A DNA stretch of 64,000 nt, from assembly GCA_032158295.1 (NCBI GenBank), contig CM063262.1, forward strand, positions 4,621,394 to 4,685,393, written 5' to 3'. Under the pieces are notes generated by a model. The model saw only the letters and a program-made list of their open reading frames with translations. It had not been told where the DNA came from and searched no databases. Position numbers and translations under genes: made by a program. This DNA comes from Pycnopodia helianthoides. Taxonomy: Eukaryota; Echinodermata; Asteroidea; Forcipulatida; Asteriidae. This document shows positions 22,601-45,053 of the stretch, in pieces (the stretch's first letter is position 1; every line of letters begins with the position of its first letter).

Positions 22601-24208
22601 ACGATGACATTTTGAAGCGACTAAATTTTCTCCAGACTGGACCAAGCTCATCTACATATTTTTTTTAAAACTATGACCACCCGTTTACATGTACACACAT
22701 AACCAATGCAATAAGAGACAATTACGTTACACCTGAACCAGTGATGTGTGGTTTGGTGTTCAATGCGAAGACGTTTTATTGGAAAATTGAGTTATACATA
22801 ACCTTGTTGCAGTGAAATGTGCAGTGCGGCATCTGCTGGGGTCACATTTTTTATGTGCAGTGCGCCATCTGCTGGGGTCACATTTTTTAAAGGCTATTAA
22901 ATGTTTGTAATAATACAAAAAAGCTATTGACGATTCATTAATTCATAGTCAATATACTGCTTTTTATGCGAAAATTGTTTATTATGCTCTCGTCCTCGTG
23001 TGTCTGAAAGGCCCTGTACACTATTGGTAAGATCGAAAAAACACAATGTTCACAGATTCACACATAACTTACATGATTTAAAGTAAGTAATGGTAGAAAG
23101 GGTTCCTTAAAATATTTCTGCCTAAAATGCTATCGTTTCTGAGAAACGAGTAAAACAATAGTAATTATCGCGCGCGATAATTTGAAAAAAAACAGAAAAC
23201 ACATAAGGTCTCTTTTCACTATTTTCTCTTGACCTCGATGACCAATTGAGCTCAAACTTTCACAGGTTTGTTGGTTCATGCATATGTTTAATCACACAAA
23301 ATGTGGACACTGATTCTGAGCTGTTACCAAAAGTGTACAATACCTTTAATTCAACTTGCCATCATAAAATAACACATAAGTGAACATGTGCAAAATCCCT
23401 CATGTAATATAAATTTCATTAATTGTATTTTACTCATACACCGATTTGTGTTAAAGGTAGGGTCATACTTTGGTAATGACCCACCCCCCCCCCAAAAAAA
23501 AAAATAAATCATCTGAAATGCCCCAGTTGATTATAATCTGAATCTGAGAAACGATTCATGCATAAATCGTTCCTCAGGCTTCTGAGGGTTGGTGTCCATT
23601 CGCGAATGCTGCGGCCAGAGATGCATCAATGTCTGACAATTATACGCGTTGCGTACATGCATGCATGTTTCCATTGTTTGACCTTGCCAATGCAAGGGGT
23701 CTATTGGGAGACTTGGCTTATTCAGTAATCCATGCCTGACTATGCCAGTCTAAATTCACGCTTCTTAACCCTCCTACTCTCAGCGACTCTTGGCAACATT
23801 TTCCAGTGAGTTGACCAACCATTTGAAACCATTCGACTGCCAAGGTTGTGTACGGTGGCACAACTGTGCACAGAACTAACTGTGTACTGTGTACATGCAT
23901 TCCCTCATGGTATCATATTGCAGGCTGGCATAGTTTATCTATCATTCAAAACCACAGTGAATGGTATTGAATGGTCAGACAGCAAGAGGGTTAAAGAGGT
24001 TCCAACCTTTTCTTCTTCTTTTTTTCCCAAAGCTCCTGAAGAAGGTCAAGAAGGTGAGCCAGCACAAACTACAGAAGGAGAGGGGGAGGCCCCAGCACCT
24101 GCAGAGGGTGAGGAAAGCCAACAGGATGCAGTTGAAGAAGGTGGCGACGGTGGCGAGGAAGCAGCTGCCCCTTCACCGGTAATGGAAGAACCCGAGGAGG
24201 GAGATTAA
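13644..24208 (+). CDS. RSPH1: Radial spoke head protein 1 homologue, 7 coding exons
   Basis: Exons 13644-13697, 14493-14606, 16404-16509, 17842-18068, 18781-18852, 20128-20356 and 24033-24208 join to 978 nt, 325 residues and a TAA stop. All introns are GT-AG. The product is a structural protein of the radial spoke head in motile 9+2 cilia and flagella. The start [12 protein letters not shown] matches the vertebrate RSPH1 start. Residues about 20-160 hold six MORN repeats: [91 protein letters not shown] and [18 protein letters not shown]. The family segment [15 protein letters not shown] follows at about residues 171-185, and [11 protein letters not shown] after it. The tail (about 225-325) is Ala/Glu-rich and acidic, as in the family but diverged. 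Length is close to the vertebrate protein (about 310). An X-box-like site upstream suggests RFX control. Confidence 0.97.
14838..14905. mobile_element. Fragment of F6 element in RSPH1 intron 2
   Basis: TTCATCTTGGAGAGGGCAAG followed by CATTTACATTTTGC matches the left half of the F6 family. The right half is absent here. Confidence 0.5.
15484..15821. mobile_element. TTAA-flanked MITE (family F2) nested in F1
   Basis: It has TTAA at 15480-15483 and 15822-15825 and ends AGGTATTGTACACTTTTGG / CCAATAGTGTACAGGGCCT. Copies lie at 23009-23345 and 33960-34294. It is a non-autonomous, piggyBac-like element. Confidence 0.88.
15893..16186. mobile_element. CAGGGTTCTGCCCA MITE with 5-bp target duplication
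   Basis: The inverted ends CAGGGTTCTGCCCA and TGGGCAGAACCCTG are flanked by direct CATGT copies at 15888-15892 and 16187-16191. It is inserted in the same F1 element. Confidence 0.85.
16540..17125. mobile_element. Long inverted-repeat element enclosing an F7 copy (family F8)
   Basis: The left arm TTTGCGGTAACACCATGTG runs into TATATCTACTTAGCTGT. The right arm carries the reverse complement, ending GTGTTACCGCAAAC. The arms are about 80 bp. The interior 16652-17019 is an F7 element. A related single arm lies at 22180-22300. Confidence 0.75.
16652..17019. mobile_element. F7 MITE nested in F8, reverse orientation
   Basis: It starts CAGGGCTCGAATTTGGGG and ends TTAATTTCGAGCCCTGAG, with GCCTCGGGCC near the right end. 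Orientation is opposite to the 5998 copy. Confidence 0.8.
17698..17713. repeat. G homopolymer in RSPH1 intron 3
   Basis: An uninterrupted run of about 16 G. Length is likely to be unstable or mis-called. Confidence 0.9.
18160..18392. repeat. 45-bp tandem repeat in RSPH1 intron 4
   Basis: There are about five copies of a 45-bp unit built on CACTCATACCCCCTCTTCCT then TACCATAGGTGACTT. Because 45 is divisible by three, the minus strand stays open (15-residue repeat RKRGYECSG), but this is not a gene. The same unit in opposite orientation forms the 41400-41935 array. Confidence 0.9.
18393..18612. mobile_element. Non-repeat half of the array-bearing element, copy A
   Basis: It shares GATCACACT, GGAAAGAAAGA, the CGATC-containing centre and AATGTGTGCTTCACGCTTGA with the reverse complement of 40965-41310. 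The same tandem unit lies on the same side in both copies, so array and body form one interspersed element. Confidence 0.75.
18998..19300. mobile_element. Fold-back MITE in RSPH1 intron 5
   Basis: The inverted ends GGCCAAGTTCGCGCAAG and CTTGCGCGAACTTAGCC delimit about 300 bp. No second copy was found in the window. Confidence 0.75.
19830..19997. mobile_element. AGGCCTGGAATT MITE (family F6)
   Basis: The ends AGGCCTGGAATTTCATC and TGTAATTCCAGGCCTG are inverted. The interior has GGGCACTTCCATTGGAAAA and AAGGGGCACCAAGGC. This is the reference copy of the family in this window. Confidence 0.88.
20878..20996. mobile_element. F6 MITE, right end lost
   Basis: AGGCCTGGAATTTCATCTTC through AAGGGGCACCAAGGCCGAG, then a direct join to an F1 element at 20996. 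Confidence 0.75.
20996..21135. mobile_element. Partial F1 MITE
   Basis: It starts GGGCCCAATTTCATAGAGC and keeps GGAAACCAGTCAAAGATGGC. The right end is missing. Confidence 0.7.
21542..21734. mobile_element. Complete F1 MITE
   Basis: A full-length 193-bp copy from GGGCCCAATTTCATAGAGC to GCTCTATGAAACTGGGCCC. Nearly the whole element is self-complementary. Confidence 0.9.
21769..21892. mobile_element. Palindromic element related to 4463-4632
   Basis: CAATTGTTGCACGCTGTGA followed by GGTTTTGTACACCCTTGG, with the inverted CCCTTGGTTGTACAAAAC. Confidence 0.7.
22180..22300. mobile_element. F8 element fragment
   Basis: ATGGTGAGGTATCAATGTG and ATCTACACAGCAAAGTAGAT match one arm of the 16540-17125 element. 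Confidence 0.6.
22400..22530 (+). mobile_element. tRNA-derived SINE head
   Basis: CTCAGTTGGT, then TAGAGCACCGG (box A region, split by a short insert), then GGTTCAAATCCCGC (box B). The body GTCAACTTTTTTTGGTCAA follows. The acceptor stem is not conserved, so it is not a tRNA gene. A related minus-strand copy lies near 44845-44960. Confidence 0.65.
22816..22890. repeat. Two-copy direct repeat, 37-bp unit
   Basis: GTGCAGTGCGGCATCTGCTG and its near-identical GTGCAGTGCGCCATCTGCTG follow each other directly with a shared GGGTCACATTTTTTA tail. Confidence 0.8.
23009..23345 (-). mobile_element. F2 TTAA MITE, reverse orientation
   Basis: It starts AGGCCCTGTACACTATTGG and ends CAAAAGTGTACAATACCT followed by TTAA. 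The left flank is CTGA rather than TTAA, so one target copy has decayed. Confidence 0.85.
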
Positions 24209-29490: not shown

Positions 29491-31160
29491 GACTTGACCG
29501 TAGCTCTTTTTTTTAGTATCCAATTGGAAAGATATTATTGCTTTCTACAAGAAATACATAATGTACTTTCAAAAATAATATACATTTGTGGATCATCCGA
29601 AACACCTATAGTGGTTTAAAGCTTTTTGATCATCATGTGCAGATGCTGCTTTATAGCCTGATGACAAATGAAAGTTGAATTGAAAATGAAAGTAAAAATT
29701 ATAAATTCAGCGAACAAAGGCCGAACTGTTCTTTCCCTTCCAGCCTCATGTCGGTGTTGTTAAAGCTACATTGCCTGATTTTTTCCCTCAAATTTTATGG
29801 CCAGGAATTGATTTAAATAATGGCTTTCCTGTCCAATTTCAACAAAAACGCATGCAATTTAACGCCTGGGCTTTAATAGTTATGAAACAAAATGCTCTGC
29901 GGCATCAGCATTCAACAGTCAAAAGAAGTCAAACAGTAAATTTCACACAGCTTAGCATTCACTGGTCAAATAAGACCGTTCAAATTCATGAGGTCGCAAA
30001 GATCATTCAATTTCGCAAAAAAACAAAGCAGCAAGAGGCTTTCCCCAGTTTCATAAAACTGTAAACGGGTCATCGAGACTCAACTGAAGAATGGTGGAAA
30101 AAGTCATCTTGAATGTCCATAAATGAAGTATAATGACAGAACCGAGCCTGGAATGAGAAGAGTGAAATCCTGCACGGCTCGAAAACGAAATCAATTGCAA
30201 CAGTAGATAAACAGAAACCCTAAGCTAGAAATGATTCAGCGAAACACGTGTGTGAATGTGAACGCGTGTTAATGAAACTGAATTTGTCTTTTGCTGAAAT
30301 TGACCAGGGGGAATACCCATAGTTACAAATGTGTTTTTATCATCAGGACCCAACATAACCTCATTTTAATAGCAGCCCTTCGACCTTTGCACGGTCAGCC
30401 ATTTGCGTGTAGAGCTTTGTGAATTGGGGACAGCAGTGCATAGAAGCATCACTCTATACTGTCATGGTAATGTACAGGCCTTGCGTTTAGGCTTCATGTA
30501 AAGTAGCCCGCTGGGCCAGTAAACTGTGCATTTTACTTGCCCCCAGGAAGTTTTAGTAGCCCAGATTTTAAACAGGAATTGCCATAAATGTAATGTTCTG
30601 ATGTGCTTATGTTAAGGAAGTTAAATTCACATACTCGATAACGATTAACACATTTTAGACATTAATTATTCACATTTGAAAAGGGTAGAAATTAGCATTT
30701 TAAACGAGTAGGTTGCACAGTTTTTACTAGCCCACAGGGAAAGTTGAGAAGTGGTGTTTACAAGCCCATAGCATTTTTTACTAGACAATGTACGCCGGGC
30801 TAGTTTTAAGGGCGAGCCCTGGTGTAACAACACTTTAATCCAAACAGATACATAAACACACTACAAATGTAGCATGAAGTCAAGGCTCTACACGCACAAG
30901 GCAGATCCCTGCAAGTAGCGAACAAACAAACAATCTGCAGACAACGAGTACACGCATTCTATTTTTAACATCCCCATGGAGACATCTTTTTGTTCTTTCC
31001 TTTATCCCTGTACATAAAAACATCCTCCCATAGACTCTGTACACAAAACTCCTTGTGGAGCACCCCAGTCTTTAGAATTGGAGACGGTCTGTTTTCCCTC
31101 GTTTTGTTCTGTCCTTGGTCTCCCATGAAGGTAGCGAATATTTACGCAGTACTTTGTGCC
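29491..31160. other. Intergenic stretch after the arrays
   Basis: AT-rich sequence with no gene recognised. At about 30479-30822 there is a diverged element with GTAGCCCGCTGGGCCAGTAAA on the left and CTAGTTTTAAGGGCGAGCCC on the right. It resembles the F7 family in theme but not in detail. Confidence 0.45.
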
Positions 31161-31745
31161 TAAACAATAATAATAACGACTAGTTCTTATGTAGCGCATT
31201 TTACAATAACGTATCTATCATCGGCTTAGAACTATAAGGTCGTTAACGCAGTTTGTATGAATTTCATCAAATTGGATTTTTGCATATTTTGGAGCTCCTG
31301 ATAAATGGAGTTTATTGATCAAGAGTGGTCTCCAAAAATTAGTAAAAAGAAACATTCAGTTTCTAAGAAAAGATTTACTTGTGGATTTTGATTTACTTTT
31401 TCAAACTTGTTTGCATTTTTCACTTAACAACCTTTTGATCATTACGGATTTGAAATTGCCATTAACGACCTTATAGCACTGAGCCGACGCAATGTGCTTT
31501 ACATTATTAGTGCCCTGGTCATTGGGCCAATAGCATTCCTGTAACTTTTCTCAGCTCCCCGGGAGTACACAATACCAACCTCTACCCTCGCAGGTACCCA
31601 TTTATACCCCTGGGTGAATAGAAGCAATTATAGTAAAGTATCTTGCTCAAGGACACAAGTGTCATGACCGGGATTCGAACCCACACCCCGATGACTCAAC
31701 CACTCGAACTTGAATCCGATGCTCTAAACCGCTCGGCCATGACAC
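31160..31745 (-). mobile_element. tRNA-Ser/Leu-like SINE split by a MITE
   Basis: Read on the minus strand, the head at 31743-31666 has GGCCGAGCGGTTTAGAGC (box A) and GGGTTCGAATCCCGG (box B). The body has CACCCAGGGGTATAAATGGG and CCCAATGACCAGGGCAC, and the tail near 31165 is a TAATAATAATAACG-type run. The tRNA-like arms are too irregular for a functional tRNA. The body is interrupted at 31229-31478. Confidence 0.8.
31229..31478. mobile_element. Fold-back MITE nested in the SINE
   Basis: The left end CTATAAGGTCGTTAACG and the right end GTTAACGACCTTATAG-like arm (ATTAACGACCTTATAG) face each other. The SINE sequence GCTTAGA / CACTGAGCC continues on either side. Confidence 0.7.
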
Positions 31746-31769
31746 CAGAACTGCCAACATTTGCATTTT

Positions 31770-31940
31770 GCAATCAGGGAGATTTTGCACCTTAACCAGG
31801 GAGATATTTAGAATTACATTCAACAGAGCAGGGAAAAAGTTTCCATAATCAGGGAGATTATCAAATTTGTTCATCAGACCACGGAAAGATTGGTTTATTT
31901 TCAGGAAAACTTTCTGCATAATCAGGGAGAGTTGTCGGCT
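31770..31940. repeat. CAGGGAGATT interspersed repeat
   Basis: TTTCCATAATCAGGGAGATT and TTTATTTTCAGGAAAACTTT recur at 57720-57835. It adjoins the SINE above. Confidence 0.7.
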
Positions 31941-32025
31941 CTGTGACACCCCCATGCGTGTGGACTACGCTTCCGTGTAGGTTCTTCTTCTTTGCTGTGA
32001 CGTGTTACCAGTGACGTGTTACCAG

Positions 32026-32102
32026 CATCGCTCAATTCCCGAGACACTAACATGTGTTTTTATAGACTCATCACAAGTTAGGGTCTCAGGGACTGAGAAA
32101 TG
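32026..32102 (-). ncRNA. mir-125: mir-125 precursor hairpin (lin-4 family)
   Basis: The 5p arm occupies 32092-32071 on the minus strand and equals canonical miR-125 at all 22 positions as I know it (seed CCCTGAG, 3' end AACTTGTGA). The 3p arm is at 32057-32036 and pairs with it along nearly its whole length, with three internal mismatches. The loop is 13 nt (TGAGTCTATAAA-type). The lower stem CATTTCTCA / TGAGCGATG extends pairing by nine positions, as Drosha substrates need. It is the last member of the cluster in transcription order, 957 nt after let-7. In other bilaterians miR-125 acts with let-7 in developmental timing and differentiation. Confidence 0.97.
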
Positions 32103-32209
32103 GGTCAATAGTCTCTGCTGATGGACTCGCTGCTAGGACGCTCAAAGTTGTCCTCTTCATCTACTGGTTCAGGGCTTAGATTTCACAACCGAGCTAAGAT
32201 TGTTCTTAA

Positions 32210-32567
32210 AGACACTGGACACTATTGGTAATTGTCAAAGACCAGTCTTCTCACTTGGTGTATCTCAACATTTGCACAAAATAACAAACCTGTGAAAATT
32301 TGAACTCAATTGGTCGTTGAAGTTGCGAGATAATAATGGAAGAAAAAACACCCTTGTCACACGAAGTTGTGTGCTTCAGATGCTTGAGGTCTCAAAATCA
32401 ATTCAAATATTTTACTGAGAAATTACTCCTTCTCAAAAACTACGTTACTTCAGAGGGAGCCGTTTCTCACAATGTTTTATACTATCAACAGCTCTCCATT
32501 GCTCGTTACCAAGTAAGTTTTTATGCTAACAGTTATTTTGAGTAGTTACCAATAGTGTCCAGTGCCT
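32210..32567. mobile_element. TTAA MITE (family F3) between mir-125 and let-7
   Basis: It is flanked by TTAA at 32206-32209 and 32568-32571. The ends are AGACACTGGACACTATTGG and CCAATAGTGTCCAGTGCCT. Other copies lie at 35730, 37970, 49234, 60509 and 63034. Confidence 0.88.
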
Positions 32568-33059
32568 TTAAGACTCATACAGGATTGGTAGAGCTAACAA
32601 AATAGTCGCAGATGGTGTTCATGTTTTGGGTGATTAACCGTATACATGAAATAACAAACCTGTGAACATTTGGGCTTAATCCGTTGTGGGAGTCAGGAGA
32701 AATTAGTGAGAGAAAAAACATGCACAATTTTCAGCATGTAGACACATTGTCCTTAATTTTGGTTGTGACAACTGAAATCAGCTGTTGCATTTTTTTTATT
32801 ATTTAGGATTTTAATAGTTTTATTTGAAGATGACTTCATTTCAGAGGGAAATATTTCACACACAAAAATCACTGGCCTTGGGCCTCGACCCTCTTGTAGG
32901 ACTTTAAAAGACTGTTAAAAATCCGCGAGGCACTCATGCAAACACTATTAGGTGTGGACATTCTATGCAAATGATCCAGAAATATTCAGCCAATCACATT
33001 CTCCTCTGCAGTGTGCAAAATGCCGACTCATCCAATCCGATCCCACGATGCATTTGCAG
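32568..33059. other. Spacer between mir-125 and let-7
   Basis: It includes about 200 bp (32590-32800) that distantly resembles the interior of the TTAA families (AACAAACCTGTGAACATTTG). The rest is unrecognised. Confidence 0.4.
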
Positions 33060-33145
33060 CACCTTTTGGAAAGTTAGCAGGTTGTATAGATATCGCCTAA
33101 AGGTGTATTTCTTATCTTTACAACCGACTACCTCACACAAAGGGT
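33060..33145 (-). ncRNA. let-7: let-7 precursor hairpin with divergent 5p arm
   Basis: The 5p arm at 33135-33114 (minus) starts TGAGGTAGT, keeping the full let-7 seed GAGGTAG, but differs from canonical let-7 at positions 10 (A to C), 18 (T to A) and 21 (T to A). The 3p arm at 33089-33068 reads CTATACAACCTGCTAACTTT, a typical let-7 3p. The loop is 24 nt and the lower stem CCTTT/AAAGG extends pairing. Substitutions 10 and 18 are not compensated on the 3p arm, so they add a C/U and an A/A mismatch. Its place between mir-100 and mir-125 confirms identity. The 5p arm should still silence seed-matched let-7 targets. Confidence 0.94.
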
Positions 33146-33384
33146 ATGCCTCTTAGTAAGTGTGCCGACGACGTCTGGATTAAAAAGTCTGCCTGCAAAG
33201 AATATTTCAAAATTAAATTGTGAAACGACATTATTGAATAAAGCCTTGAACTCTTATTTTTCTTTCTTTCACAAATGACTGTTCTGGAGAGATGAGATTT
33301 GACAAATGTGAAAATTCCTGACAAATTGGCACGGTGGGTCTGGGTTCCCGTATTCCATACCCAGAGCTTGGCAGATGTTTACCA
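33146..33384. other. Spacer upstream of let-7 in the host transcript
   Basis: Nothing recognised. It lies in an intron or primary-transcript segment between mir-100 and let-7. Confidence 0.4.
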
Positions 33385-33560
33385 TTCAGGAGGTTTACAG
33401 ACTCTCTGCATCACCAGAAATACAAAACTACAGGTTTGGACGCAACGTGGACTATTTCTTTCTCCCTTTGATGACCCCTTTTCAAGAAACTTTGAAGGCT
33501 CAAGGAGATTTTGAAAAAAATCCTGAAATCACAAAAAATTTCCCGAGAAAATCACAAACC
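33385..33560. repeat. Interspersed repeat shared with 39985-40155
   Basis: TTTACAGACTCTCTGCATCACC, then ACAAAACTACAGGTTTGGAC, then AATCCTGAAATCA recur in the same order at 39985-40155 (ACAAAACTACAGGGTTGGAC). Confidence 0.7.
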
Positions 33561-33959
33561 TGTATTTCATATAAGGCTGTTGTGCAACGAAGATCCTAGC
33601 CCTCCCTAATCCTCCTCGTGAATTTTTGTCAATTGCGGAGGATTGAGGACTGTATAAGCCCAAATAACAATTACTGATTCACTGGGCCAGGCCTACCAAT
33701 CTTATCCGAGTCCAAACATGTCGGTGTGAAGCAACAAGAGAGTAAGGGATAGTGGAGGACTGGGGGTCACCTCTGGGCAAGTGGGCCTAGGAAACAAGGG
33801 CTTTAATAAAATTTCTTCAGCTAAGAAGCTAGATATTTTTCGAGTTCAAGTGGTTTTTTTTTCTTTTCTCGTTTTCGATACCTGGGCAAGACTTGCACAG
33901 CCCTAATGGAAAACACTAAACCTGTACATGGAATGAGAGATTGAATAGATCAATCTTAA

Positions 33960-34294
33960 AGGTATTGTACACTTTTGGTAAGCAGCTCAAAATCAGTGTC
34001 CACATTTTGTGTGATTAAACATATGCATGAACATACAAACCTGTGAAAGTTTGAGCTCAATTGGTCATCGAGGTCACGAGAAAATAGTGAAAAGAGATCT
34101 TATGTGTTTTCTGTTTTTTCAAATTATCGCGCGCGATAATTACTATTGTTTTACTCGTTTCTCAGAAAAGATAGCATTTTAGGCAGAAATATTTTCAGGA
34201 ACCCTTTCTACCATTACTTACTTTAAATCATGTAAGTTATGTGTGAATCTGTGAACATTGTGTTTTTCGATCTTACCAATAGTGTACAGGGCCT
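33960..34294 (+). mobile_element. Complete F2 TTAA MITE
   Basis: TTAA on both sides, with ends AGGTATTGTACACTTTTGG and GTGTACAGGGCCT. The interior carries the palindromic core ATTATCGCGCGCGATAAT. Confidence 0.9.
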
Positions 34295-34842
34295 TTAAGA
34301 TGGCGCTTGTATGAGGAAAATATCTTTCAAATTCCTCGACTAATCTGGTGATGATGATTCTGCGTTTTGAAGTACATGGATTGCATAGACGGAAAAAAAA
34401 ATTAATAATAAATTTAAAAAAAATTCTTTGCACTGACACCTGTGGTAGTCTGCAGTGGGTTATTTTCAAATATTTTCGTTGTTTGTTTTCAAAATAAAAT
34501 TTCACAGCCACTTGCGTGAGGGGGGGGGGGGGGGTGAGCAGATGGCGGAAAATACGTGGCATTTTTAAAAATCATACTAGACCTGTTTAATCATAAACAA
34601 GGAGGCAAACACGCCTTTAAACATGTGCAAACACTGACTGTAGAGCAAACAATAACTCATTATGTTAATACTACAGGCCCTGGTATGGGTTTTCCCCGAT
34701 GCAGCAATCGACGTGCCAGCAAGTTTTGCCAACGAGGTCTGCTGGCAGTATCATTTAGAGTCCAAGTTGAGTTGGGCACAATTTTAACCAATCTTACTGC
34801 GGAATTCTCTGCTTAGGAATGGGTCCCACGGTGCAGAAAAAT
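34295..34842. other. Spacer with a G homopolymer
   Basis: A run of about 15 G lies near 34518-34533. No gene or repeat family was recognised. Confidence 0.5.
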
Positions 34843-35115
34843 ACTGCTTGGGGGTACTGCTTGGGGGTACTGCTTGGGGGTACTGCTTGGGGGTACTGCT
34901 TGGGGGTACTGCTTGGGGGTACTGCTTGGGGGTACCGTTTGGGGTACTGCTTGGGGGTACCGTTTGGGGGGGGTATTGCTTGGAGGTACTGCATGTGGGT
35001 ACTGCATGTGGGTACTGCTTGGAGGTACTACTTTGGGGGTCCTGCTTGGGGTATTGCTTGAGGGTACTGCATGTGGGTACTGCATGTGGGTACTGCTTGG
35101 GGGTACTGCTTGGGA
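34843..35115. repeat. 13-bp minisatellite GGGTACTGCTTGG
   Basis: About 20 imperfect 13-bp units with variants GGGTACCGTTTGG and GGGTACTGCATGT. Glycine- and serine-rich frames in it are spurious. Confidence 0.93.
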
Positions 35116-35729
35116 CAGAGATCTATTTCTGCTTGTAAAAAAAGTAGCATGTATACCAGCTGTAGGTAATCTCCAGGAATATGATTACTGGCAAATACAA
35201 CAGCGCCCTCTTGAGTTCATGAAGTCCATAATGTGCCATGCAACTGATGGTCGGCCTTTTGCCAAGACGTTTTCCCTGATAGTTTCCTCACCATACAGGT
35301 AGGATTCTGCTTCTACATGTAGCTTTGCTGCCAGCACCTGAAGAGTAAATCAGAAGAGAGAAAAAAACAACATTTTTACTGATTAAAATCATTGGGAAGT
35401 ACTAAGACATACACTTTAACCATAACTTGCTTCCCTTGTTGTGAGGGCGCTGTTTGAACGTATGATGTCTTCATGGAGGGGTCTATCACTTGGTCCTAGG
35501 GGGATGTGAAGGGGGATGACACATGTGCAGGAACCCCAACTAAAATGAATCCCAGCCCAGTATATGCAATACAAGTGAAGGGATTCTCCCATAATATATA
35601 CATGCAAACGTATCCAGGCATATATCCTCACAGCCAAGACAGGAAAAAAAAAAAAAAAAAAAAATAGAATTTAAAAAAAACTTCACATAAAATTCACAAA
35701 AATGTGAAAATGTACCCAGGGCTTTTAAA
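35116..35729. other. Spacer, nothing recognised
   Basis: A plus-strand frame near 35150-35300 ends at a CATACAG/GTAGGA junction that could be a donor, but the peptide has no recognised family. An A homopolymer of about 22 lies near 35643-35664. Confidence 0.4.
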
Positions 35730-36020
35730 TAAGACCAGTCTTCTCACTTGGTGTATCTCAACATATGCATAAAATAACAAACCTGTGAAAATTTGAACTC
35801 AAGTCCGTCGAAGTTGCGAGATAAGAATGGAAGAAAAAACACCCTTGTCACACGAAGTTGTGTGTATTCAGGTGCTTGATTTCAAGACCTCACGCGTGAG
35901 GTCTGAAAATCAATTCAAATATTTTACTGAGAAACTACTTCTTTCTCGTTTCTCACAATGTTTTATACTATCAACAGCTCTCCATTGCTCGTTACCAAGT
36001 AAGTTTTTATGCTAACAATT
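35730..36020 (+). mobile_element. F3 MITE, ends lost
   Basis: AGACCAGTCTTCTCACTTGG through ATGTTTTATACTATCAACAG and CTCGTTACCAAGTAAGTTT. It matches the 32210 copy closely but lacks the terminal TTAA ends. Confidence 0.8.
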
Positions 36021-36289
36021 ATGCTAACATGTTGAGCTAATTGTTTTGCTTTTTTTTATGAGCAGCTTGATTAAATTGGGCCTTGGGAACAACATATTGT
36101 GTGCAAATTATTAAAACAGTCATCAGTAAAGTCAACAATTTAAGTCAGCGCAAATACATGTAGTCATAGAGCTTTGACAGCCTTTAGCTGTACCAGCAAA
36201 ATCCATAAGAGTCAACATCGTTAACCAGGCAAGGTCTACGTACATCGGCCATCTTTACCAATTTCCATGGACTCCACATTTCCAACCTG

Positions 36290-36490
36290 CGACCTCCGGA
36301 GCAGGCGCTCTATCGAGCTATATTTAGCCTTAATGTTGGCGGTCTCCCTATTTTGTCAGTATCTTTGTTTGATGGTGCAAGTCAGAAGCCATTCAACCTA
36401 TAACTGCCGTATAGCCAGGGATCACAACCTAAGTTTACGATACAACCTGGGAAGCGGCAGCAGAGGGATCACCTTACAGGGGATATTACT
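36290..36490 (-). mobile_element. tRNA-headed SINE, shared with 63500-63955
   Basis: CTATCGAGCTATATTTAGCC marks the degenerate tRNA head. CAGAAGCCATTCAACCT and GTTTACGATACAACCTGGG then GAAGCGGCAGCAGA are shared with the terminal SINE of the window. Confidence 0.65.
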
Positions 36491-36663
36491 CGGGTACAAA
36501 TTTACAATTAATATATATATTTGCTTTAATCACCAAATCGTTGGTTATTTAACACAATTAATAGTAAAGCATGCCGGTCTCTTTGTAAAAACGCAAAAGC
36601 AAGATGGCCTACTTTTGCAAACATCTATCGTGTATGTCATTTACATGTACATAGTAGAGGACG
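36491..36663. other. Spacer, nothing recognised
   Basis: AT-rich spacer between a SINE and a minisatellite. Confidence 0.4.
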
Positions 36664-36776
36664 GGCATGTCACATGCATGTCACATGCATGTCACATGCA
36701 TGTCACATGCATGTCACATGCATGTCACATGCATGTCACATGCATGTCACATGCATGTCACATGCATGTCACATGC
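36664..36776. repeat. 11-bp array CATGTCACATG
   Basis: About ten perfect copies. The unit is nearly self-complementary (one central mismatch), so the whole array can fold back. Confidence 0.95.
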
Positions 36777-37241
36777 ACGCTGACGAACCCAAACTCTTCA
36801 CCAAAACACATGTGGGTCTTTCCATAAATGAGGGGGGCCAAAGCCTGACATGGTGTTATATCTCAAAAGATAATGTACTCTCTACATTCTTTGCATGTTT
36901 TAAGTGGTGGGGATAGCTCATACGTTTAATGTATAACTTCAATTTCTGGAATCAGATTTTTTGTTTTTTTATATACGATCCAAAACGATCCATCACACTG
37001 TAACGGAGACACCGGAGTCTCAGTTTCCTGTTACCGTGGGAAACTCGAGACTTGTTTTGCCATAAATTAGTAGGGTTTCATTGAAAATTAAAATTTCACA
37101 GGGTAATATGTAAACATCATTGGTATACTGTCATTATTATTTTCAGTGAAAACCTTCAAACGTAGGCCAAGAAGTAAAAGCCAACAGTTTCAGGCGTAAC
37201 CGAGACACTGGTGTCTTTGTTACACCCTGACTCAAAAAGTC

Positions 37242-37496
37242 CTCTCTACCTTATTATGCATCATAAATATATCTGATCTTCTCCGTAAATACATTCCTGT
37301 TCGTCCTCTTCGTTCTGCTGGCCAATCCCTACTGACGCAAACTACTTTTTCCACTAAATTTTATGGTCAAAGAGCCTTCAACTTCATTGCACCTTCGTTA
37401 TGGAATGACTTACCACTTCATATTCGCCAAGCTGGCTCTCTTCAGATTTTCAAGAGACTTTTAAAAACTCATTTGTTTGAATCTTTAGTTGTGTAA
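37242..37496 (+). pseudogene. C-terminus of a non-LTR retrotransposon ORF2
   Basis: The frame 37242-37496 reads SDLLRKYIPVRPLRSAGQ, then TTFSTKFYGQRAFNFIAPSL, then WNDLPLHIRQ and FKRLLKTHLF with a stop. This block (LRS, YGxRAF, APxLWNxLP, FKxxLKTxLF) is the conserved end of reverse-transcriptase polyproteins of CR1/L2/Jockey-type LINEs. No upstream RT is left, so it is a 5'-truncated copy. The following 3' tail has GCGCATAAAGGCTTCTGC. Confidence 0.85.
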
Positions 37497-37969
37497 CTTG
37501 CTTTGATATTCATTTCATTGTTTTGTGTTGCGCATAAAGGCTTCTGCATTGTGCGCTATGTAACTATCTCGTATTGTTATTATCATTATAAATGTCTGAA
37601 TGTAGCAAAGTGCATAGTAATACATGCTACATGTACGTAGTAGGTATTACATATGAGGAGAATAAATTTTAAAAAGGCATAACTAACAAATTTTTGTTTG
37701 GGGGCATAATATTCAGAGATGCAGTCTGTTCGTGAAATTGCAAAATGCAATTACTGTGATGACTGCCCACTTTCCAATTACTGTAATCAAGAAATGAAGC
37801 AGCCATTTGTGACGGCTTACAGTCATGTTTTTAAGGCAAGAAGTAAACAAAAGAACCTCAACTATCTAGAAAAAAAATGATTTTTTGGGACTTGCCCTTC
37901 CATTATGAAAACGGTTACAATGCATATATCTTTTTTTTTTCAGTGATGTATTTTTTTCCTGACATTATA

Positions 37970-38349
37970 GGCAAGATATACTTTGGGTAATTGTCAAAGA
38001 CTAGTATCCCCACTCGGTGTATCCCAACATATGCTTAACTAACAAGCCTGTGAAAATATGGGTTCAATTGGTCATCGAAGTTGCAAGAAAATAATGAAAG
38101 GAAAAAAAGCCTTGTTGCATAGAATTGTGTGCTTTCAATGCCTGAAAAGGCTTCATGCCTGAAGCCTTTCTCAGATTCAAATACTTTTAAGTGAGAAATG
38201 ATTACCTCTTTCTCAAAAAAACTACATTACTTCAGAAGGAGTCATTTCTCACAATGTTTAATACTATCAGCAGCTCTTAGGTGCTCCTTACCGAGTAAGT
38301 TTTGATGGTAACATACTTCTTGAGTAATTACCAAAAGTATCCACTGCCT
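37970..38349 (+). mobile_element. F3 TTAA MITE, diverged
   Basis: AATTGTCAAAGACTAGTATC, GTGCTTTCAATGCCTGAAAA and an AAAGTATCCACTGCCTTTAA end. It has an extra palindrome AAGGCTTCATGCCTGAAGCC in the middle, shared with the 49234 copy. Confidence 0.82.
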
Positions 38350-39531
38350 TTAAAATCCCTCTGCTGTAAAATAAAAATACACAACTGAGCTTGTTGAAAT
38401 GTCAATATCCCAAAAATCCCTTCCCCCAAATGCTTTGAACCAAAATGACAAAGTAAACCAAGTTCTTGTTGAATGAATTTAAATCTACAAGGTTGGAGTG
38501 AATTTGAAATTCTTTATAGTTATGCATCAGGGATTTATAAGAAAATATTGCTTGGTTTTACCCAGACATCTATGTGTGTAAAGCACTGTACACTCAATGT
38601 TCAGCACAAATAAAAAATTATTAAAAAAAATGAAATTGTTGCGGTACCCGTTGCTAAAATATAGGATTCAAACTCAGGGGCGTAGCTAGGACTTTTTCAT
38701 GGCCATGTTTAAACGTGCGATTATAAACAGTCAGAAGTGATTAAACATGACCTGACCTTATCAAGTCAAAAGAGGGCGCTATCAGACAATTGCACGGAGC
38801 GTGCAAATTTCACGGCCCAATTTAAGTTGATAGGTTGCATATTTGCTAGCAAGTTTGAAACTTGCGCGTGGAGGCACTCGGCGCACGACACGTGTCTAGA
38901 AATTCAAGGAGAGAGTCAAGGTGAGCCGAAGCTAAAACTGTCAGATTTGTTCTCAACTTTTACTGGGTTTTTGGACGTTTTTAAACAGTAAAGGTATTTA
39001 TAATGGGAATCAAAGTGTGCTAAATCGGTTTAAAGTTGTTAAACACGTTGAGACTTGGTTTATGATAACTTTAACTCGACTTCATCCCGGTGAAGTTATC
39101 AAAAACCAGGCCCTCAGCGTGTTTTTAAACAACTTAAAGTTTAAAACCTCTTTCATCCTACTTTGAGATTCCCTTATTTATTTCCATTGCTCCGGCTCTA
39201 ATCTATATGGTTCCAACAGGACTGTTTTGAAAGCATTTCCTGATACTGTACATGTATATCCTCGTGCACGCATAAATATATGAAACACAAACCCCCCCAG
39301 ATGCGAGAATATCACTGTTTGCATGACCCAGAATCACAGATAAAGACACAGCGGCCAACATTGTCAGGGACCAGTATCCGCACTTTGTGTGACCCAACAT
39401 AAAAAAAAACCACTGTAACAAACCTGTGAAAGTTTAATCCCTTTGGAGACCATTCAATTGTGCATAATCATCACTATACGCCCAGACATGGTTTAATTCT
39501 TTTATTTTTTTAAACACTTCTATCTTGTTAA
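38350..39531. other. Spacer, nothing recognised
   Basis: About 1.2 kb without gene signals. 39001-39170 contains a weak fold-back (TAAAGTTGTTAAACACG / CGTGTTTTTAAACAACTT), possibly an old MITE. Confidence 0.45.
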
Positions 39532-39890
39532 AGGGAAGGTATACGTTTGGTAATCACTCTAAAAATGTATGGCAATAAAAACTGACTTGGTTAGAAGTAC
39601 ACAACTTTCGATAGTATAAAGCATTTTGAGAAATATTTCAATTCAAAATAATGTGGATATGGAAAAAGATGTCGGTTTTTATCCCCAAAAAATTGAATCT
39701 GATGTATTCCTATTAGGAATTATTCTTCCTGCATGGACATAACCACTCCAGATTTTTGGCGATATCTCAAAACGCTACCCCCCTTTTGAAATAAAATTTT
39801 CACAGGTTAATTTGATAGTACATTTATATAGCATTAAAACAATTGAACGGTTCCAAAAACTAAAGGTATACTTTGCACCTGTAGCCTCGA
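39532..39890. mobile_element. TTAA MITE (family F5)
   Basis: It starts after TTAA with AGGGAAGGTATACGTTTGG. The interior GATATCTCAAAACGCTACC and CTAAAGGTATACTTTGCAC match the 52147 copy. Confidence 0.75.
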
Positions 39891-39984
39891 TTTGGATTTC
39901 AATTATGACAGTCGTGGCATACGAGATCTTAAAAAAGGAGTACAGACCTGGAATCTCCCACATGTTACAATACATGAGACTTAC

Positions 39985-40155
39985 ACTCTACAGACTATGG
40001 GCATGTACATCACCGGAGACACAAAACTACAGGGTTGGACACAATAAGAACGGTCTCTTTCTCTCTTGGGTGACTGCTTATACGTCTTTCAAGACAAATT
40101 TTGAAGGCTCAGGGAGATTATGAGAAAATCCTGAAATCAGGAAGAAGAAAAAACC
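39985..40155. repeat. Interspersed repeat, second copy of 33385-33560
   Basis: Same block order as the 33385 copy. Both lie in the mir-100 to let-7 interval. Confidence 0.65.
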
Positions 40156-40176
40156 TGACAAATAACATGCCCACTG

Positions 40177-40400
40177 CTATTGCTCGATACATGTAGTATT
40201 ACATTTTGCATGGCCTGACTGAGACACCATACATGTAGTATTACATTTTGCATGGCCTGACTGAGACACCATACATGTAAGTATTACATTTTGCATGGCC
40301 TGACTGAGACACCGTACATGTAGTATTACATTTTGCATGGCCTGACTGAGACACCATACATGTAGTATTACATTTTGCATGGCCTGACTGAGACACCATA
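40177..40400. repeat. 42-bp tandem array, about five units
   Basis: The unit is TACATGTAGTATTACATTTT then GCATGGCCTGACTGAGACAC. The units are almost identical, so the expansion is recent. The 14-residue frame repeat on the minus strand is a by-product. Confidence 0.95.
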
Positions 40401-40964
40401 CCCAAAAGGTCAAAGTACTTTCGGCTATGGATGCCTTTTATAATGGCATACCCACCTGCTGGGAAAGGTGCACAACTAATTGCAAAGGTCAGTGTATTGG
40501 GTCCAGAGATTAAAAGCGGCTAGACTTGCCAAGGTCACCTGCAGTCTGCTGACAAGGTCACTCTGGAAGGTCACTGGGGGCCCCCCATGGGTGTCGTAGC
40601 TTCACCATAATCTGCAGCAGGGAAAACAACATTTACATACGTTTTTTTTAGACCCTGTAAATCAACCAGGACGTCACCGTGTTAGGTCAACCCAGTGACC
40701 CGCTTTATTCACTTTATCTTGTTGTTCGTCATTTTGTACACAAATTTTTCATTTATACAGAGATCCCAAATGCATAATCAGAGCATAACCTAGCACTGTG
40801 ATCAGAGGTGTGATTGTGTTAAAACCCTGCAGCGATCAGGACCTGTTCGGTTGCAACACCCCATGTGGTCTACTGTCAGCCATTACGCTGACAAGCTTTT
40901 TTCCATAGGTCAACCTTTTTTTGTTACTAAATTGTTTTGGCATAAACAACCGCTGGTGGCCACA
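40401..40964. other. Spacer, nothing recognised
   Basis: No gene, RNA or repeat family was recognised. Confidence 0.45.
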
Positions 40965-41310
40965 TTGTTTGACCACTCAAGCGTGAAGCACACATTCTTA
41001 CACAACAGAACGCTTTCCTTCAAAGGCCATTTTTTTTTACACACTCTATTATCTCCATGAAGATTTTGTTTTACAGCAAAATAAGTAGAACAAAAGTTCT
41101 AACTTATTGAATTCCCTTGCGTTAATCTTAAAATCATTGCGATCGATCGGCCAATAAATGTCAAAGTTCTTTGTCTTTCTTTCCAGAGTGTGATCTGTAA
41201 TCCCCAACCACATGGCACTCCGTGGTTGTTTTGCATTTCGGATCTTTCAACTCCAATTTGAAGAGATTGCTTATTAAAAAAAAATAGCAACCTTATTTTA
41301 CTTTTACTGT
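40965..41310 (-). mobile_element. Non-repeat half of the array-bearing element, copy B
   Basis: The reverse complement of this segment matches 18393-18612 (AAGCGTGAAGCACACATTCTT, TCTTTCTTTCC, AGTGTGATCT). The 45-bp array follows on the same side as in copy A. Confidence 0.75.
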
Positions 41311-41399
41311 CAGTGGAAAGATCCTATCTTTCTCTTTTTCCAATAATGGTAAGCTTGGGTACAGAGGCTAAACATGGACAAATCTTGTAAGCTTGGTCG

Positions 41400-41935
41400 A
41401 CTAAAATCACCAATGGTAAGGATGAGGGGGTATGAGTGCAGAGGATGAAGTCACCTATGGTAAGGAAGAGGGGGTATGAGTGCAGTGGACTAAAGTCACC
41501 TATGGTAAGGAAGAGGGGGTATGAGTGCAGTGGACTAAAGTCATCTATGGTAAGGAAGAGGGGTATGAGTGCAGTGGACTAAAGTCACCTATGGTAAGGA
41601 AGAGGGGGTATGAGTGCAGGGACTGAAGTCACTATGGTAAGGAAGAGGGGGTATGAGTGCAGTGGACTAAAGTCACCTATGGTAAGGAAGAGGGGGTATG
41701 AGTGCAGGGGACTGAAGTCACCTATGGTAAGGAAGAGGGGGTAGATCAGTGGACTAAAGTCACTATGGAAAGGAGGGGGTAGAGTGCAGGACTGAAGTCA
41801 CCTATGGTAAGGAAGAGGGGGTATGAGTGCAGAGGACTAAAGTCACCTATGGTAAGGAAAGGGGTGTGCAGGATGAATCACAAGGAAGGAAGAGGGGTAT
41901 GAGTGCAGAGGACTGAAGTCACCTATGGTAAGGAT
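41400..41935. repeat. 45-bp tandem array, second locus
   Basis: About 12 units of CTATGGTAAGGAAGAGGGGG then TATGAGTGCAGTGGACTAAA, the reverse complement of the RSPH1 intron 4 unit. Some units have small deletions, which may be real or from assembly. Confidence 0.95.
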
Positions 41936-42487
41936 AGAAACAGTTTGTGATGTACCTTTCTTTAGAAAAATCATGTTCACCAAATGTACAGCCTTCACTA
42001 AATATTTTCAAGTACTGGAACATAGTCTTTGTACTTTTATCAATATTGTTGGTATGCTGTAAGGTTTTCAATTTTTTTAAAGAATTTTTTTTGACTTTTT
42101 TCCCGTTAGTTTGTGGAATTTGCGATCTTGAAGCCCAACCGAACCAACAACTCGATTACAGTTTGGTTCAAACAGCTGTGTCACAGCGGTTGAACTGAAT
42201 GCACGAAAAACGCTTAAATCTCAAACATTCTGGTTGGGGTCGCCAAAACACGCCCCCCCCCCCCACTGTAGCTTTTCACAAGGATTTGAAATGGGCCTCC
42301 ATCACCATCCTTAGGCAGCGACTAAAAGTTCTTCCAAATTATCTCAAATCTCGGGCAAGTGTTGCAATTTGGTCTGGCCGCAGCTGCATGCCTTCGAAAG
42401 GGCATCACTTTGTGGAGAAATTGTCTGATTATATACGGGTCTCTCCTTTTTAAACATCGAGGAACTGCAACTGCGTGATGCACAGGT
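41936..42487. other. Segment downstream of mir-100
   Basis: No repeat or gene recognised apart from a C homopolymer near 42254-42264. It belongs to the host primary transcript. Confidence 0.4.
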
Positions 42488-42568
42488 CTTACCCACTCAA
42501 GACCCATGGATTCGAACCTGTGATTGGAAGTCAGCACAAGTTCGGATCTACGGGTTCAGGTTGGCAAG
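42488..42568 (-). ncRNA. mir-100: mir-100 precursor hairpin (mir-10/99/100 family)
   Basis: The 5p arm at 42556-42535 (minus) starts AACCCGTAGATCCG and equals canonical miR-100 at all 22 positions as I know it. The 3p arm at 42522-42501 starts CACAGGTTCGAATCC and pairs along its length with a few G-U or mismatch positions. The loop is 12 nt. A further stem CTTGCC/GGTAAG at the base sets the 81-nt precursor. It is the first member of the cluster, 9.3 kb before let-7. Seed ACCCGTA defines the family. Confidence 0.97.
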
Positions 42569-42729
42569 AAGTTTACTTGCTGTTGTTGTTGCACTTTTGA
42601 CTCTCCCTCCCTGTGTGGCGGTTGGGGTTCCAATGTTCGTAACTGAGAAACACTGGACTGCTGCCATTAATTTCATTGCTGCAGAGGCACAACAAACAAG
42701 TAGCTTGAAGTACAAAAAAGGATAACATG

Positions 42730-42862
42730 TTTGCTTACCAAAACAAGGTTACCAGCTAACGCACCATGTCACATGTATCATCTGTGACTGGTGTCCAGCT
42801 CATTTTTTGCTTAGCAGCAAACTCTTAAGCAATAATTTCTGCTTAAGCAGAGCTACAAATTT
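42730..42862. mobile_element. Partial F1 MITE just upstream of mir-100
   Basis: GCTTACCAAAACAAGGTTACC, ACATGTATCATCTGTGACTGG and a GCTTAAGCAGAGCTACAAAT end. It lies about 160 bp from the mir-100 hairpin. Confidence 0.7.
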
Positions 42863-42954
42863 GGTAGACGGCCTCAAACACGTTTTTTTTTTTCAAAAGA
42901 GCAGAATGAGGGCCTTTAATAAAAAAAAAAGAGTTGTTTAAATATATTTTATCA

Positions 42955-43085
42955 TTTTCTTCAAGGAGGAAAGAGCCCGACTAAAAATTTGCTGGCTTTG
43001 TAGAACTTAGAAGTCTAAAATATGGGCTTGAGCTAAATCAATCGTTGAAAGAATGGTGCCAAGATGAAGCCAAAATAGGCCTACA
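42955..43085. repeat. Interspersed repeat shared with 47400-47515
   Basis: GGCTTTGTAGAACTTAGAAG, then ATCAATCGTTGAAAGAATGG, then AAGATGAAGCC recur at 47400-47515. Confidence 0.7.
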
Positions 43086-44844
43086 TGAACAATTTATTAT
43101 TTTTGAAAAGAAAAAAAAGGATGTGCGTTAAAAAAAGGATTAGGGCGGGGAAGATCAACTGGTGTTTTTATTTTTAACTCGACCTAAAAAAGTTAGCAAA
43201 TGCTGGCGATACATCCACTACCACCACAATTATTTCTTATTTATTTATTTGTGATTTATGTATGCATGTATGCATTTAAATAATTAGTTGCTTATTAATT
43301 TATATTTTCCAGTTTCAATTCTTAACATTTATGTATTCAGTTTTTATCTGTAAATTTGAAGAATCTGTTAATTTTCTGTTTTCCCTTTCCTGTAATTTGC
43401 GGTTCATCCGCTGTTAGCTTGGACAATAAATACAAATACAAATGCAAATACAATTTAATATATGCCAGTCTGGCTGACAACATTCTGTTCCTTAACAGAT
43501 GTATCAACACATAGCCATTCACAAACACTGTGGAGACCCAAATTGCTTTTTTGAAAACATGATCGATTCTCAACTCAACTGGAGGCCAAATTAGACTTCA
43601 TTACTAATGTACTCCCCTTTGGAATTATTTCAGCACAGCAAACACAAAGTTGCTGACTTGCTCTGCCGATCTAAAGGCCACTTTTGAATGTTGTCACAGT
43701 GTCTGGTCTGAATAGGCCAGGGCAGCCGGACCCCCCACCAGTGGGCACTATCAATTAGTGTTTTGGATTATGATTGAGCCCGCTGGTGTTGATCCAATTA
43801 CACTCGAGCCAGGGGCTGTTTGCACAGTGTTATGTGTACTGGACAGTTAACAATACACCCCTGTAATGGATTTATGAGGTAATTTGCCTCTCAATTGGCC
43901 ATAAAATATAACCGGACAGGATGTGGATTGAGGTCGTTGACTTTCTGGCTCGGATGTGGTCACGGTCAATTGGCCACTGGTCAGTCGTATATCAGGGAGC
44001 TCCATGGTCATACTATTACCCTGTGACATCACAGGGTTTACAGAAGGGCCACCACAGCCTGCACTTCCTGCAGGCCACGATTTGTACACAGCCCAAATCA
44101 AAGACAGTAAAACAGTAACAAAAATCTTCCCGGAATTAAGTGCAAAACAAACAGATACAAAAATAGTCCGATACCTTACTTTGTCAAGATTTTGAGCAAC
44201 GTATAGATTTCCCTTTTTTATTAAATGTGTGCCATGTTGTTGTGTTTTTTCTGGATGTATTTTTATATCATATGTAAATCTTAACTATTTTTAAAGTAGT
44301 TATTTTGATGTACATTGTAATGTTTTTAAGTTGTAAACTTTGTAGCACTTTAGCCCCTTGGCTACAAATACACTGTTTTAATAAGCCAGAAATGTTCCTT
44401 GTATCCAGTAACAGAAATGCTAATATTCATTGTTAAAAAAAAAGAAAAAAGAACCAGACTATTTCACCTTCCAGCCTCAGTTTGGTAATACATCGAGTTG
44501 AATGAAAGAAAATCAAGATGGCCTCACAATGATAAAGATCTATGGACGAAAACATTGGATCTTACATTTCATGGAAATTGCACATTGGAACTTTTGATTT
44601 GAAGCAGAGGGCAAAATTTGTTCAGCTGTTATTCGGCACATATTATTATTAAGTAACTAGAACCGGGGGGGGGGGGGGGGTTATGGTTATGAACGAGCAG
44701 TGCGTGCTGGGAATAAAAATAGCGTGGCGAGATCGATCACCCCTGGGAGCAAGGTTGGATTTGTCAGGGGATGATTTATGTCCGTATCAGGCTCGTTTCG
44801 ATTGCAGTGATTAAAATATATAATGTGGGATTGAACAGAAAAAA
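43086..44844. other. Spacer within the host transcript, nothing recognised
   Basis: AT-rich. A run of about 18 G lies near 44667-44684. No candidate exon or known repeat was found. Confidence 0.45.
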
Positions 44845-44960
44845 ATATGACTAGAGCGGGATTTGAACCAACGACCCCCGGAGGTCGCTGATTCTAGTTG
44901 TTTAAAAATTTACCCAGTCAGTTTCCCTTGTGGTTTATTATTTGATATTAAAAAGTTGCG
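44845..44960 (-). mobile_element. tRNA-derived SINE fragment
   Basis: GAGCGGGATTTGAACCAACG is box B in reverse complement, and CCAGTCAGTTTCCCTTGTGG matches the body of the 22400 copy. Box A is lost. Confidence 0.6.
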
Positions 44961-45053
44961 TCCCCTTAAGGTGATCCTGCTTATTTTTGTTAAGCAGAAA
45001 GTTTGTAAGCAATATTTGCTGCTTAATAAGCAGCTGTATGAAATTGGGCCCAG
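44961..45053. mobile_element. F1 MITE remnant
   Basis: Right half only: GGTGATCCTGCTTATTTTTG then GCTGTATGAAATTGGGCCC. Confidence 0.65.

Follow-up and report, generated by a model that had tools for sequence, protein, structure and literature searches.

The microRNA genes mir-100, let-7 and mir-125 stand in that order in the fly let-7-C cluster and in the vertebrate clusters, and let-7 is a textbook case of a sequence that has stayed almost frozen among bilaterians. Relatives of the three genes are described as jointly transcribed in vertebrates and insects (PMC1388199). Here we analyse a let-7 complex in a 64-kb window (the whole stretch of DNA studied, C20:4621394-4685393) of an animal genome assembly of 479,350,823 bases in 742 contigs. 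The unusual feature of this locus, overlooked in an earlier sequence-only reading of the window, is a divergent let-7, and no other let-7 was found in the genome. The best explanation, to which we give a probability of roughly 0.8, is a working, single-copy sea-star let-7 complex in which let-7 has shifted in sequence while its seed has been kept.

The three hairpins share the minus strand, with let-7 located between mir-100 and mir-125, a position that supports its membership of the let-7 family (Table 1). Each of the three mature strings occurs once in the window, and their 5p starts are separated by 9,421 nt from mir-100 to let-7 and by 1,043 nt from let-7 to mir-125. Folding gave −32.8 kcal/mol for mir-100 (42488-42568, z = −5.0), −24.3 kcal/mol for let-7 (33060-33145, z = −3.2), the weakest of the three, and −32.3 kcal/mol for mir-125 (32026-32102, z = −6.4), with 0 of 200 shuffles as good in each case. 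Over a wider let-7 stretch (33050-33155), z was −2.7 and 2 of 200 shuffles equalled the native fold. If the arms are taken to be 22 nt long, mir-100, let-7 and mir-125 form 19, 16 and 18 arm-to-arm pairs, with 12, 24 and 13 nt between the arms, and the let-7 arms are compatible with 2-nt overhangs. MirGeneDB-style microRNA criteria ask for 16 or more such pairs and for a loop no shorter than 8 nt, values that all three hairpins reach with these assumed arm ends. Coordinates, single occurrences and folds that beat all 200 shuffles agree with the sequence-only reading, which had proposed three minus-strand hairpins in the order mir-100, let-7, mir-125 and had named the three folded intervals. 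Its description of short loops suits mir-100 and mir-125, and let-7 less well. The statement that miR-100-5p (AACCCGUAGAUCCGAACUUGUG) and miR-125-5p (UCCCUGAGACCCUAACUUGUGA) equal the canonical strings exactly was also correct, and miR-125-5p is in addition identical to spu-miR-125-5p (PMC4669494). For let-7, the hairpin and its place in the order stand, but the wording hid the fact that the mature sequence is not canonical.

The let-7 5p arm, UGAGGUAGUCGGUUGUAAAGAU, differs from the canonical UGAGGUAGUAGGUUGUAUAGUU at 3 of 22 positions, with A replaced by C at position 10 and U replaced by A at positions 18 and 21. Compared with the urchin form it has 4 of 22 mismatches, position 15 being the additional one (PMC4669494). 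Positions 1-9 (UGAGGUAGU) are unchanged and include the seed GAGGUAG at positions 2-8, by which let-7 family members are recognized, and the ancestral bases at positions 11-17 are likewise kept. Pairing partners of the ancestral A10 and U18 persist in the 3p arm, CUAUACAACCUGCUAACUUUCC, and the changes at positions 10 and 18 are thus uncompensated. Chance does not explain the match: with equal base use assumed, the expected number of 22-mers having at most three mismatches to let-7 is 0.0003 for 64 kb and 2.4 for 479 Mb, and none of 100 shuffles of the window held one. The location of the match, with mir-100 and mir-125 on either side, and its hairpin add support.

The complex is apparently single-copy, as no second mir-100, let-7 or mir-125 was found in whole-genome searches of the 479-Mb assembly. 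An exact search of the genome for the canonical let-7 21-mer returned no match. A degenerate let-7 pattern that allowed any base at positions 10, 15, 18 and 21 matched the cluster locus without mismatch, no place with 1 mismatch and 19 places with 2 mismatches, compared with 32 for the reversed control pattern. With the Rfam let-7 model, the cluster was the sole match in the genome at E up to 10 (57 of 69,013 first-look candidates scored). The mir-10-family model (59 of 55,657 candidates scored) gave six matches, made up of three loci each hit on both strands, namely mir-100 and mir-125 of the cluster and a mir-10 on C9, whose 5p arm, AACCCUGUAGAUCCGAAUUUGUG, equals spu-miR-10 (PMC4669494). 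Among 14 prokaryote control genomes, weak let-7 matches occurred in 6 and weak mir-10 matches in 5, none over the cut-off, and exact scans of viral contigs returned 0 matches for each of the three mature strings.

Scores against the Rfam models set the three hairpins apart. The gathering cut-offs are 47.5 bits for RF00104 (mir-10 family) and 53.5 bits for RF00027 (let-7). Over its cut-off stands mir-100 (52.6 bits), while let-7 reaches 47.1 bits (E = 3.6e-7 in 15 kb and 2.7e-6 in the genome), mir-125 36.5 bits (E = 8.6e-6) and the mir-10 on C9 46.6 bits, just under the cut-off. At gathering scores, mir-100 alone was recovered from the whole window, and at E up to 1 the interval 30000-45000 gave 22 matches, let-7 and mir-125 included. 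Many of the remaining low-stringency matches belong to an 11-bp tandem array or are the three hairpins read from the other strand. Matches to mir-4536, mir-3927, mir-513 and other families near 36.7 kb sit on this array and were rejected, as was a plus-strand match to mir-3596 (51.1 bits, cut-off 96), which is the let-7 hairpin in antisense. A gathering cut-off serves annotation and does not define let-7 biologically, and since this let-7 scores below it, a strict cut-off would miss the gene. Annotation at the Rfam cut-off could in this way yield a false let-7 loss.

If the complex works as its arrangement suggests, mir-100, let-7 and mir-125 would be carried over ∼10.5 kb on a common minus-strand polycistronic primary transcript, which Drosha and Dicer would process into three mature microRNAs, with the 5p arms used as guides. 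The variant let-7 would show altered central and 3′ pairing and come from a looser hairpin. In ordinary animal targeting, the centre and the 3′ end of a microRNA rank below the seed. Position 10 is central and positions 18 and 21 lie near the 3′ end, below the seed in rank, which makes a working variant the simplest reading. Because the seed is intact, TRIM71/lin-41 and the other usual heterochronic targets are most likely still repressed.

The partners expected of a let-7 pathway are encoded in the same genome. TRIM71/lin-41 is encoded on C4 by a single 793-codon open frame (best PDB match TRIM71, 6fpt, E = 1.5e-186), and the 7,391 nt downstream contain two CTACCTCA let-7 8-mers, located 1.5 and 5.9 kb beyond the stop codon. 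Among 419 permuted 8-mers used as a control, the mean count was 0.043 and 3 of the 419 reached two. On C10, lin-28 has split cold-shock exons and two CCHC knuckles (the best seven PDB sequences for the knuckles are all LIN-28, E = 6.8e-12 to 1.2e-10), and one CTACCTCA falls in the final exon of its coding sequence, a short way ahead of the stop (G000:C10:15040595). The pairing of the two TRIM71 8-mers was compared with 6,000 implanted controls. The distal site, L051:8434, can pair with the variant let-7 through the altered positions 10 and 18, with duplex energies of −22.6 kcal/mol for the variant, −18.8 kcal/mol for the canonical and −13.6 kcal/mol for the urchin form (P = 0.024 for variant binding, P = 0.053 for the difference). 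As two TRIM71 sites were tested, these P values give weak support. A third match is the 7-mer TACCTCA at L051:5352. Five further seed matches, some of which may lie outside transcripts, were folded without controls and showed no consistent direction for variant versus canonical let-7: −17.5 versus −16.6 at the lin-28 coding site, −19.0 versus −22.8 at C10:15032574, where the canonical form is favoured, −13.2 versus −13.5 at L057:2019, −18.5 versus −16.4 at L057:2255 and −19.5 versus −13.6 at L057:9739. That the sole let-7 of a sea-star lineage changed outside the seed and its key target TRIM71 changed alongside it is rather unlikely on these data, and we treat guide-target co-evolution as a lead only. 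If true, guide and target would have co-evolved in a regulator that ranks among the most conserved in animals.

Several observations weigh against a working variant. The observed 5p/3p duplex has an energy of −16.3 kcal/mol, compared with −24.4 kcal/mol with a canonical 5p arm and −18.2 kcal/mol with the urchin 5p arm. In a hairpin scan at a threshold of −28 kcal/mol, which returned 46 places, several of the top ones being tandem or inverted repeats, mir-100 and mir-125 pass and let-7 does not. The TRIM71 3′UTR is not annotated, and the 5.9-kb site may fall outside the transcript. The proximal TRIM71 site, 4028, pairs poorly beyond the seed, more weakly than is typical (P = 0.81 for the variant), and has no preference between the variant (−14.9 kcal/mol) and the canonical form (−14.8 kcal/mol; P = 0.44 for the difference). 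Lastly, two uncompensated pair-breaking substitutions would also be expected from early decay. A let-7 locus in decay, with let-7 being lost, accords with uncompensated changes in the arm presumed to act as guide, the weakest fold of the three, a score under the Rfam cut-off and a genome in which no further let-7 was found, but it is improbable given that the first nine bases are intact and 16 arm pairs remain, that lin-28 and TRIM71 are retained and that seed sites lie near TRIM71. To our knowledge, the loss of let-7 would be extraordinary in any bilaterian, and we count this against decay as well.

It is very improbable that a canonical let-7 lies elsewhere, unassembled or missed, and that the cluster copy is a diverging paralogue. 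The assembly may be incomplete, as it is divided into 742 contigs and a search of it for COX1 gave no match, and the let-7 model search scored a small share of its first-look candidates (57 of 69,013); set against this, the exact, degenerate and model searches described above point to one locus, and the variant copy stands where let-7 stood ancestrally, with mir-100 on one side and mir-125 on the other. A mistake in the assembly or its consensus, or an unusual allele in a species whose usual let-7 is canonical, would suit a 3p arm that pairs better with the canonical form and a sequence taken from a single assembly, but three separate substitutions in 22 bases, next to unchanged mir-100, mir-125 and mir-10 mature strings in the same assembly, are a pattern not expected of errors when contigs are 14 to 25 Mb long, and make this explanation highly doubtful. 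A working let-7 with a changed sequence remains our preferred explanation. Where the sole let-7 of a lineage has changed outside the seed, nature offers a test of the weight that the non-seed sequence carries.

Table 1. Hairpins of the let-7 complex and repeat copies between them (positions in the window; arms read on the minus strand).
Feature	Position	Strand	5p arm	3p arm	Basis or remark
mir-100 hairpin	42493..42563	minus	AACCCGUAGAUCCGAACUUGUG, 42556-42535	42522-42501	RF00104 over cut-off; fold; arm pairing
Divergent let-7 hairpin	33065..33141	minus	UGAGGUAGUCGGUUGUAAAGAU, 33135-33114	CUAUACAACCUGCUAACUUUCC, 33089-33068	RF00027 under cut-off; fold; arm pairing; sole genome match
mir-125 hairpin	32029..32098	minus	UCCCUGAGACCCUAACUUGUGA, 32092-32071	32057-32036	RF00104 under cut-off; fold; arm pairing
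Interspersed repeat copy between let-7 and mir-125	32201-32571 or 32201-32711				Direct-repeat families D4, D5; limits approximate, start by eye
Further D4/D5 repeat copies, mir-100/let-7 interval	33989-34092, 35731-36057, 37996-38353				

The D4/D5 interspersed copies inside the cluster are diverged, being 61-83% identical to the reference copy. A 45-bp tandem unit occurs at 18144-18404 and again at 41399-41934, in opposite orientation and ∼23 kb apart. Elsewhere in the window, a MORN-repeat exon on the plus strand (17835-18074, Pfam E = 3.2e-21) matches RSPH1, radial spoke head 1 (E = 9.3e-43), and MORN1 slightly better (E = 7.5e-43); the gene possibly extends to about 24200, and its tail may correspond to an acidic open frame at 23810-24208. 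A C2H2 zinc-finger exon lies at 5187-5495 on the plus strand (zf-C2H2, E = 1.1e-6), and an open frame at 2222-2638 on the minus strand has a weak PAN-domain match under the cut-off (E = 0.0011).

A sea star is the most likely identity of the animal, judging from TRIM71 and from miR-2012, a marker of echinoderms and their kin. Among the 120 matches listed of 256 proteins at E up to 1e-50 (8,000 scored), TRIM71 is closest to Acanthaster planci (87% identity), compared with 74% for the brittle star Amphiura filiformis, 68% for the sea urchin Diadema setosum, 67% for Saccoglossus kowalevskii and 63% for Anneissia japonica; the protein set was clustered at 90% identity, and other sea stars may be hidden behind the Acanthaster entry. 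The miR-2012 string is present on C22 with one terminal mismatch (reversed control, 0 matches). Both results bear out the earlier assignment to the echinoderms. The sequence-only reading had further stated that miR-100 has been reported missing in some sea urchins and held that an intact cluster would be informative for echinoderm evolution. The first point stands in part, as miR-100 is reported absent from S. purpuratus reads and genome v2.1, while an earlier northern blot was positive (PMC3247247). The second carries much less weight than claimed: miR-100 was already known from embryos of the sea star Patiria miniata (Kadri 2011, PMC3247247), so an intact cluster is unsurprising. That study worked without a sea-star genome and so could not show a cluster (PMC3247247). 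The sea-cucumber let-7 in PMC4669494 bears an urchin name and may be a mapping reference, not the animal's own sequence. In the paper listings searched, we found no report of a sea-star cluster or of the variant let-7, although MirGeneDB, miRBase or other sea-star genomes may hold the variant; positions 1-14 of the variant, as RNA and DNA on both strands, occur in no PMC main text searched, supplements aside.

Set beside the bilaterian let-7 complex, the locus has the same three families in the same order on one strand, which upholds its identification as the mir-100/let-7/mir-125 cluster in ancestral order. It differs in that it spans ∼10.5 kb with tandem and interspersed repeats between its members, is present in a single copy and contains an altered let-7. 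As in Patiria miniata, miR-100 is found here in a sea star (PMC3247247). The first nine bases are identical to those of spu-let-7, UGAGGUAGUAGGUUAUAUAGUU (PMC4669494, Table 1 of that paper), and the variant has G15, as in the canonical form, where spu-let-7 has A15, together with C10, A18 and A21. This G15 hints, weakly and from one genome set against the canonical form, that A15 may have arisen within the echinoderms and not at their base. Against these known systems, the cluster itself is what is expected of a sea star, and the divergent sole let-7 is its noteworthy part.

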